Below, in pieces: positions 12,324-14,939 of a stretch of DNA of 64,000 nt. The notes below the pieces were generated by a model, which did no database searches, was not told where the DNA came from, and saw only the letters and a list, made by a program, of their open reading frames with translations. The first letter of the stretch is position 1. Every line of letters begins with the position of its first letter. Position numbers and translations under genes: made by a program. The DNA is taken from the NCBI GenBank assembly GCA_023260985.1, contig JALRKY010000029.1, positions 1 through 64,000 on the forward strand, written 5' to 3'. Source of the stretch: Altererythrobacter sp. (lineage in GTDB: Bacteria; Pseudomonadota; Alphaproteobacteria; Sphingomonadales; Sphingomonadaceae).

Positions 12324-13097
12324 GCTCGCGCTTGTTGCGTTGCTGCTGGCGCTTGGCATCGCTGCCGGGCTGTGGGCATGGCAGCAGCTTTCCCAACCGG
12401 TCGACCGCAAGCCGCTCGGCGTGATGAGCAGCCTACCCATCTATTGGGCTGAAGGGGCCTGACGATGGTGATCGAGGGCGGAGGACAGGCGCCCTGGGTT
12501 CGGAGCGCGCTTGAGTAACGTTACCAACTGTCGCCGCTCGATACGCTGGCAGCCGCGCCTGACGGGGAGGGCGGGCAGATCGACCCGCTTGCCGGGCTCG
12601 ATCGGCTCCTGATCGCCCAGCCGCGCGGGCTCAGCCCCGCAGACAATGCCGCGCTCGACCAGTGGGTGCGCGGCGGCGGACGGCTGCTTTTCCTGCTCGA
12701 TCCGATGCTGACCGGGCGATACGCTGTGCCGCTTGGCGATCCGAGCCATCCGGTGGCGATGGGACTCATACCGCCGGTCATGGTGCGCTGGGGTCTGGCG
12801 ATGCAGTTCAACGAAGCCCAGTCATTGGAGGTTCGCTGCGAAAGCTATGGCAGCGGTTCCATTCCAGTGCTGCTGGCAGGCGAAATGCTTCTGGCGGATC
12901 CCGATCCGGAGGCAAGCGAAGAGGAACTGGCGGCGCGCGGCGATTGCCGAATCCTGGGCAGCGGGATCGCTGCGCAGTGCGATGTGGGGAAGGGACGAGT
13001 GACCCTCGTTGCCGATGCCGCATTGCTCGAATTTTCGGATCCGCCGGGCAAAGCGCCGGACCAGCTGCTCGAACTGGCCGAATTCGCCATCGATTAG
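12298..13097 (+). pseudogene. Broken DUF4350-like membrane-anchored protein gene
   Basis: Three consecutive pieces look like one former gene of about 265 codons. Piece one (MAQAAKRLKLALVALLLALG to LPIYWAEGA) is an N-terminal anchor and the start of the domain. It ends at TGA (12460-12462). The next piece reads in another frame (MVIEGGGQAPWVRSALE) to an in-frame TAA at 12516-12518, after which the same frame continues RYQLSPLDTLAAAPD to LELAEFAID. Both lesions interrupt what would be continuous family sequence, including the typical GLDRLLIAQPRGLSPADN and WVRGGGRLLFLLDPML. The TAA stands where CAA (Gln) would fit. Sequencing error could explain the frameshift near GGGG, but less easily the stop. 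Family assignment is from recall of intact sphingomonad relatives. Confidence 0.72.
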
Positions 13098-13123
13098 AGA
13101 CGGTTGCGCCGCATTCCGGGCGC

Positions 13124-13182
13124 GACTCATGACAATCGGGGCAATCGCGGGAAGCCTATCGCGCTTGCGACTCGCGAGTCGC
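13124..13182. promoter_or_regulatory. Cluster of three GANTC sites in the dcw promoter region
   Basis: The perfect 16-bp palindrome GCGACTCGCGAGTCGC (13167-13182) contains two GANTC motifs; a third, GACTC, lies at 13124-13128. GANTC is the CcrM methylation site of Alphaproteobacteria, and methylation together with GcrA controls division genes in Caulobacter. Placement upstream of mraZ fits cell-cycle control of the dcw cluster; that role here is inference. Confidence 0.45.
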
Positions 13183-13280
13183 GAAATCGACAGAAAAACA
13201 GGGGATTGCACGTAGGACTTGCCGCATCTGAATAAGAGTAGGCTGAAAAATACGAGAAATTATTCAAAGATAAATCAATT

Positions 13281-13320
13281 ATTTACCACTTTATCCCGTA
13301 AATTCCCGTAAAAATCCCTT
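13281..13320. promoter_or_regulatory. Probable MraZ operator: phased TCCC boxes
   Basis: An AT-rich run contains TTATCCCGTA, AATTCCCGTA and AAAATCCCTT back to back, preceded by ATTTACCACT. The TCCC cores (GGGA on the other strand) recur every 10-11 bp, one per helical turn. MraZ is known to bind arrays of TGGG-type repeats phased at about 10 bp upstream of its own gene. The array ends about 165 bp before the mraZ start. Confidence 0.6.
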
Positions 13321-13398
13321 TCATCCCCATGCTACCCGCGATATTACCAAGGCCCATCGGACACAGAGTTTCGTTCGGCGCCTCCCTCTCGGAGTGCG

Positions 13399-13426
13399 CA
13401 CCGCCTGCACTCGCGTGCAGGCGGTG
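13399..13426 (+). other. Strong hairpin in the mraZ leader
   Basis: A perfect 12-bp stem, CACCGCCTGCAC against GTGCAGGCGGTG, closes a TCGC tetraloop in the transcript leader about 60 nt before the mraZ start. No T-run follows, so it is not a standard intrinsic terminator. It may stabilise the mRNA or act in attenuation. Confidence 0.5.
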
Positions 13427-13485
13427 GCGGCGAAGCTGTGTCCGTGGGGCAAAGGGGCCTCGGGGAACAGGGCGGAGGGGTACAA

Positions 13486-13983
13486 GTGTCTTTCGGAGGA
13501 TATAGTGGACAGGCTTATTCGCCTTCGGGCGACAAGGGCCGTTTTGTCCTGCCTCCCAGCTTCCGCAAGGCGGTTAAGGAATCGTCTGACGGCCGCATCC
13601 TCTGCCTCGACAAGCACGATCGCTGGAATTGCCTCGTCGGCTTCGGCCTGTCGCGCAATGACGAACTCGAAGCCCAGCTCGATCGCGAGGAAGACCGCGC
13701 GCTGCGGCTCGGTCGCGACTTCGACCGCGACCTTCGCGCCACCCAGCTGTTTGGATTTGCCCAGGTGCCGTTCGATGACAGCGGGCGCTTCATTATGCCC
13801 GAGCACCTGCGAAGCCTTGGCCGTGTGGAAGACGGGCTCTATTTTCAGGGTGCGGGCCGCTTCTTCACGATCTGGAACCCTGTGGAACTCTCGCGCATGG
13901 GCGAGGAATGGGAAGCGGCGCAAGCCGCTTGTGCCAATCTCGTCGCCGAAGCGCAAGCCAAGGGCAAGGGGGGCGGCAAATGA
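13486..13983 (+). CDS. mraZ: Transcriptional regulator / division protein MraZ
   Basis: AbrB-like DNA-binding protein that autoregulates the dcw operon. Two MraZ repeats are visible: [23 protein letters not shown] near the N-terminus and [22 protein letters not shown] at about residue 85. The product is 165 residues with a Lys/Gly-rich tail. The track starts earlier, but a GGAGGGG box 5 bp before this GTG and the sharp start of homology (VSFGGYSGQ) fix the start. The stop overlaps the rsmH ATG (ATGA). It is the first gene of the dcw cluster. Confidence 0.93.
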
Positions 13984-14939
13984 GCCCCGCCGCCCCAGCA
14001 AGCGACGCCCCCCATATCCCCGTTCTTCTCGATGAAGTAATCGCTGCGCTCGACCCGCGGCCCGGCGATGTCATCGTAGATGCCACTTTCGGTGCGGGTG
14101 GATACACCCGCGCGCTGCTTGACCGCGGCGCGACCGTCCATGCCTTCGACCGCGATCCGGATGCGATCGCGCAAGGCTGCGTATGGGCCGAGGCGCGTAC
14201 TACCCCTCCGCGCCTTGTACTCCATCCGCGGCGTTTTTCGGAGATGGTGGCGGCATTGGCTGAAGCTAGCATTGCGCAGGTCGATGGCGTGGCGATGGAT
14301 ATCGGCGTCTCGTCGATGCAGCTTGACCGGCCCGAGCGCGGCTTCGCCTTTTCGGTCGATGGCCCGCTCGACATGCGGATGAGCCAGGAAGGCGAAAGCG
14401 CAGCGGATTTTCTCAATACCGCCGCGGGATCGACCATCGCCGATGTGCTTTACGAATATGGCGAAGAGCGCCAGTCGCGCCGCGTCGCTCGGGCGATCGT
14501 GGCGGCGCGCCCGCTCCAAACTACTGGCGAGCTGGCCCGCGTGGTGCGCAAGGCGCTGGGCTACAAGCCGGGCGACAAGAAGGATCCTGCCACCCGCAGT
14601 TTCCAGGCGATTCGTATCCATCTGAATGGCGAGCTCGACGAGCTTCGCACCGGGCTCAATGCGGCCGAGCACGTTCTCCGCGCTGGCGGGCGGTTAGCGG
14701 TAGTGACCTTCCACAGCCTCGAGGACCGTATCGTCAAACGTTTCCTGCGCGATGCTGCGGGCCGCAACGGCGGTTCGCGCTATTTGCCCGAGAACGATGT
14801 GACGCCGCCGATCTTCACCGAAATTTCCAAGGGCATCCGCCCCTCCGAAGCGGAAATTGTCCGCAATCCTCGAGCCCGTTCCTCAACTTTGCGCCACGCG
14901 GTGCGCAGCGACGTACCGCCGAGAAAGGAGGCCGCTTGA
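13980..14939 (+). CDS. rsmH: 16S rRNA m4C1402 methyltransferase RsmH
   Basis: SAM-dependent N4-methylation of C1402 in the ribosomal P site. [13 protein letters not shown] is the hallmark N-terminus; [15 protein letters not shown] is the SAM-binding motif; [22 protein letters not shown] is the second conserved block; [14 protein letters not shown] is near the C-terminus. The 319-residue length is normal. The start is set by the four-base overlap with mraZ; the longer track ORF reads into mraZ out of frame. Confidence 0.96.

Follow-up and report, generated by a model that had tools for sequence, protein, structure and literature searches.

A candidate MraZ operator with a family-specific TCCCG box upstream of the dcw cluster in Altererythrobacter and its relatives

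The dcw locus and its MraZ protein

The window (the whole 64,000-nucleotide stretch of Altererythrobacter sp. DNA that was analysed) contains the beginning of a dcw cluster on its forward strand. The first gene of the cluster, mraZ (13486–13983; Pfam PF02381), has a GTG start and is followed by rsmH, also called mraW (13980–14939; Pfam PF01795), behind which the usual dcw genes continue. Upstream of mraZ lie an array of short, regularly spaced boxes, elements that resemble those of a promoter, a structured leader RNA and a G-rich run.

Few bacterial transcription factors are as widely conserved as MraZ, which assembles into a multimeric ring built from repeated AbrB-like DNA-binding units; to our knowledge, its sites are established experimentally in few lineages. 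Our open literature search found no paper on MraZ–DNA structures or on MraZ in Sphingomonas. A profile of the MraZ family matches the solved MraZ structures 1n0e, 9qlr, 9qlg and 9sx6, although a phmmer search of the PDB with the single protein from the window gave no match. In this protein, K17, R19, P23, R27, G100 and R101 are invariant across 24 MraZ proteins. The DNA-binding arginine, R19, aligns with R15 of Escherichia coli MraZ, a residue that Eraso and colleagues are said to have found, in 2014, to be needed for function. MraZ evolves fast within the family: identities fall as low as 20–40% when distant genera are compared, and of the repeats only the second reaches the Pfam MraZ model.

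A phased array of TCCC boxes

On the coding strand 5′ of mraZ, the box region reads TATCCCGTAAATTCCCGTAAAAATCCCTTTCATCCCCATGCTACCCGCGATATTACC. Three TCCC cores, 10 and 11 bp apart, are read directly at 13294, 13304 and 13315, as the original prediction had described; the array had nonetheless been ended too early, as a further TCCC at 13324 and an ACCC at 13334 continue the phase, giving steps of 10, 11, 9 and 10 bp from 13294 to 13334. Box 1 (13294–13297) is found in 94% of aligned relatives (at ~1.8 bits per base), box 2 (13304–13307) in 97%, box 3 (13315–13318) in 94% and box 4 (13324–13327), which sits inside a CCCC run, in 90%; the ACCC (13334–13337) is a possible fifth box, with an in-phase CCC in 54%. 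A TACC that had been taken for an additional, weaker box is indeed present at 13284–13287, but only 18% of aligned relatives have a TACC in this phase, and it is probably non-functional. Boxes 1 and 2 both read TCCCGTAAA (other strand, TTTACGGGA), and this 9-mer is repeated exactly at 13294–13302 and 13304–13312. CCC lies on the coding strand, and the box core on the minus strand is CGGGA. The array lies 150–190 bp before the GTG start of mraZ and adjoins a conserved, putative −10 element.

Four-base cores are common as such, and repeats of this kind could be a product of chance or composition in AT-rich intergenic DNA. The array, however, is a chain of five [AT]CCC cores at 9–11 bp spacing, a length reached by 0 of 5000 dinucleotide shuffles, and the box pattern is conserved across the family; the conservation data refute chance, to which we attach practically no credence. 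Moreover, the array is the sole [AT]CCC chain of at least four members in the 64-kb window, both strands considered, and the stricter pattern TCCCGN5TCCCGN{4,7}TCCC has one match in the 2.07-Mb assembly and none in a reversed control.

Conservation among relatives

Among 251 genomes from the order, mraZ was found in 244, and we read the loci of 89 relatives, the close ones among them belonging to Altererythrobacter, Erythrobacter and Novosphingobium. The original prediction had proposed aligning the mraZ upstream regions of relatives, and held that lack of conservation would count against an operator; in this alignment, the array is conserved. Chains of at least three boxes occur at −300 to −100 before mraZ in 68 of the 89 relatives (76%, against 0.3% in shuffles) and chains of at least four in 60% (0% in shuffles), whereas five other motifs form chains in the same region in 0–1% of relatives. 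The chain-bearing relatives come from many genera, and the 10–11–9 spacing is common to 59 of 71 well-aligned cases; in about a quarter of the relatives, mainly those from distant genera, at most two boxes are clear. In 58 aligned relatives, the column information is concentrated in TCCC at positions 0, 10, 21 and 30, in a CTTCCA block and in G.TA at +46, the best conserved stretch being CCCTTCC (13316–13322).

A search of 251 family genomes with the strict TCCCG pattern returned 32 matches. Those with AT-rich spacers sit, among the matches that could be compared, at known mraZ positions; several GC-rich matches lie elsewhere, and they are about as many as in the reversed control. Because the relatives are not independent samples, the p-values in this work are too favourable; the retention of the array in many genera, together with the class-wide homologue described below, is the stronger argument.

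The same relatives bear on the proposal that no protein is needed, and that the G runs of the template strand act as a G-quadruplex, as has been proposed for the Staphylococcus aureus mraZ promoter (PMC11796246). There are five G runs of 3–4 bases here with loops of 6–8, and the best G4Hunter score is −1.4 in 25 bases. The canonical motif, however, is absent from the box region and occurs in only 25 of 90 relatives; the 11-bp step, which makes an 8-base loop, is kept in most of them; and the T before CCC and the base after it are also conserved, such that box geometry is maintained and not G richness alone. We therefore rejected a quadruplex reading of the boxes and regard it as very improbable.

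Approximately 20 bp upstream of box 1, a further element, AAATCA (13272–13277; consensus AAAnCA), occupies columns −22 to −17 of the alignment of 58 relatives, with 0.8–1.45 bits at all but its variable fourth base. This is perhaps an UP-like element or a site for another regulator.

Promoter architecture and proposed mode of action

A σ70 consensus scan upstream of mraZ called no promoter, and the assignment proposed here consequently rests on conservation; the −35 is weak. The putative −10 is GATATT (13340–13345; consensus G.TA), in which the T and the A never vary among the 58 aligned relatives; G.TA is present in 93% of relatives. The putative −35, 16 bp from it, is CTTTCA (13318–13323; family consensus CTTCCA), which is strongly conserved and flanked by boxes 3 and 4. 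Transcription would start near 13351–13355; the position of this promoter is supported by the leader RNA, which begins just after the −10.

In the mechanism that we propose, MraZ would contact several GGG-containing boxes (GGGA on the template strand), one per helical turn, along a single face of the DNA. Boxes 3–5 would cover the −35 and the spacer of the GATATT promoter, and boxes 1 and 2 would prolong the contact upstream. Given that boxes 3–5 overlie these elements, bound MraZ would most likely exclude RNA polymerase, resulting in negative feedback on mraZ itself and on the downstream genes for division and the cell wall.

The opposite sign of control is conceivable, with MraZ occupying the same operator as an activator that recruits RNA polymerase to a poor −35: the array sits largely upstream of the −10, the family has lost the ancestral TTGAC −35 of other alphaproteobacteria, and activation is described in mycoplasmas (cited in PMC7761207). 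Against this, the placement of boxes 3–5 on the −35 and spacer is the usual layout for repression, and the boxes overlap both promoter elements in other alphaproteobacteria. E. coli MraZ is, moreover, a repressor. In Mycoplasma genitalium, loss of MraZ raises expression of dcw genes (PMC8475190); for mycoplasma MraZ in general, both activation and repression have been described (PMC7761207 and PMC8475190). The sign of regulation is not readable from sequence, and repression is the commoner experimental result for MraZ; we thus favour repression and think activation unlikely at this promoter.

Association of the array with mraZ

Chains of at least three boxes are found at none of 16 rsmH loci without mraZ, two of which belong to the same family; in comparison with the mraZ-bearing relatives, the difference in array presence gives a Fisher p of 4e-9, bearing in mind that the samples are not independent. 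Two further genomes, G285 and G096, were first scored as lacking mraZ, but on re-reading were found to carry a divergent mraZ as well as TCCCAT boxes, and we do not count them as mraZ-less. In two loci of the same family (L144 and L147, both from one genus with genomes of ~2.1 Mb), the region before rsmH contains neither mraZ nor the boxes nor the leader RNA.

The array might be bound by a different regulator, in which case its link with mraZ would mean no more than that the dcw promoter is important. Binding by MraZ is deduced from sequence, and the additional conserved AAAnCA element indicates that another factor may act here. Such a regulator would not readily explain why all 16 loci that lack mraZ have lost the array as well, why the repeat type and period are those of experimentally known MraZ sites, or why a base of the box shifts in parallel with a residue beside the KGR motif of MraZ; we judge this reading to be quite improbable. 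Since position, sequence and spacing before mraZ are kept across the family, and the array is missing where mraZ is missing, the proposal that MraZ is the cognate protein has held up, and the 13294–13337 array very probably serves MraZ as its operator at the dcw operon. MraZ operators are known as a kind; what is new is the operator of this lineage with its family-specific box, which provides a defined candidate for Sphingomonadales that is open to testing.

A family-specific box and a possible change in specificity

The 9-mer TCCCGTAAA had been suggested as the sphingomonad version of the box. In essence this is borne out, the family form being TCCCG followed by T or C, with G after CCC in 102 of 136 family boxes. 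Outside the family, 108 of 117 boxes have A in this position. TCCCAT at 10-bp steps is frequent in the mraZ promoters of ~30 alphaproteobacterial families and of other families of the same order, as in TTGACTCCCATGAAATCCCATGTTATCCCAT, where the boxes overlap both promoter elements, and chains of at least two CCCA cores are present in 48 of 59 mraZ loci of other alphaproteobacteria against 2% in shuffles. At the loci L104–L133, this class-wide array lies over the promoter upstream of mraZ, with TTGAC between boxes. These data indicate that the alphaproteobacterial operator consists of TCCCAT boxes laid across the dcw promoter. Given that TCCCAT is class-wide, and that TCCCATAAAATCCC persists in some distant members of the family (L079, L082 and L083), the TCCCG box looks like a derived, family-specific form of it.

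A change in the protein runs parallel to that in the box. The residue equivalent to D11 of E. coli MraZ, four residues before the conserved arginine and beside the KGR motif, is Gly in 73 family members, in which A follows CCC in 6 of 288 boxes; it is Asp in 16 distant members, in which A follows CCC in 13 of 53 boxes. We hypothesize that TCCCA-to-TCCCG and Asp-to-Gly arose jointly in box and protein; as Gly is the mark of a single clade, the correspondence does not amount to proof. If true, this would be a natural specificity switch from which to learn how MraZ reads DNA. The broader proposal, that regulator and operator switched specificity together and that the dcw operon is controlled both by MraZ and at the RNA level, we advance tentatively, leaning slightly against it. 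Two of these findings would not be expected by a specialist: the leader RNA, and the parallel shift in box and protein.

Comparison with other MraZ sites

In E. coli, the MraZ operator reportedly lies at mraZ1p, as described by Eraso and colleagues in 2014. The sequence there (locus L103 of our set) contains the G-rich boxes AGTGGGAAAT, TGTGGGGCAA, AGTGGGAATA and AGGGG at 10-bp steps before mraZ, the same kind of site as in the window; the repeats are GTGGGA or GTGGGG, at the same locus. The two arrays differ in orientation and placement: in E. coli, GGG is on the coding strand, within ~45 bp of the start codon, whereas in the window it is on the template strand, 150–190 bp upstream of the start codon and over the −35 and spacer. 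They also differ in the base 5′ of GGG, which is T in E. coli and C here.

In Burkholderia cenocepacia, MraZ band-shifts a fragment of PmraBc that holds four 7-nt repeats with 3-nt spacers (PMC7761207). A period of 10 at the dcw promoter is common to PmraBc and the present array; the GTG repeats of PmraBc, however, lie downstream of the −10, over the start site, and the CGGGA repeats here lie upstream of it. For Mollicutes, MraZ is described as binding (AAAGTGKN3)3 (Fisunov et al. 2016, as cited in PMC5282649 and PMC8475190). By that description, the site likewise consists of direct repeats with a 10-bp period before mraZ, but it has a GTG core, comes from a different organism and is associated with regulation of either sign.

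A structured leader RNA and a G-rich run

Between the promoter and mraZ, a leader RNA with a three-way junction (an outer stem and two hairpins; 13355–13445) is recognized by a covariance model, built from a seed of 12 relatives, with E = 1.9e-20; this is the only match in its own genome. Of 90 family loci, 59 carry the structure before mraZ according to the model, and a single stray, weak match (L016) lies elsewhere. Compensatory changes on both sides are seen for 23 of the 26 pairs, and cells with double changes number 190, against 50 in shuffles and 33–52 for structures slid along the alignment; these counts lean towards the model, to which the alignment was fitted, and in the 12-sequence seed alignment alone, double changes occur in 12 of the 26 pairs. 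No consensus structure emerged when 42 divergent leaders were aligned with MAFFT. An Rfam scan of 12900–14000 gave no match for the leader, the only hit being a meaningless snoR125 far below the cut-off, and in 59 mraZ loci from beyond the well-sampled part of the family the model (R1) matched nothing significantly, the best E being 0.028. The leader, apparently undescribed, is confined to the family among the loci searched.

UpsM, an abundant sRNA from the dcw cluster of Rhodobacter sphaeroides, derives from a 268-nt leader with a Rho-independent terminator, and a 2016 study considered long mraZ leaders with terminators exclusive to Rhodobacteraceae (PMC5089854). Both this RNA and the one described here are long, structured 5′ leaders between the dcw promoter and mraZ; the latter, however, comprises ~130 nt with a three-way junction, and as a search of 13080–13560 found no Rho-independent terminator, it does not share that feature of UpsM. 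It extends structured dcw leaders beyond Rhodobacteraceae.

The stretch that follows, 13446–13480, was considered as a second MraZ array in the E. coli orientation and rejected, since its steps are 7–9 bp and the run itself lacks conservation. It is a G-rich run, GGGGCAAAGGGGCCTCGGGGAACAGGGCGGAGGGG, that represents a textbook G-quadruplex-type motif on the mRNA strand, with the canonical motif in only 6 of 90 relatives; it precedes the start codon, and the Shine–Dalgarno sequence of mraZ is likely to lie within it.
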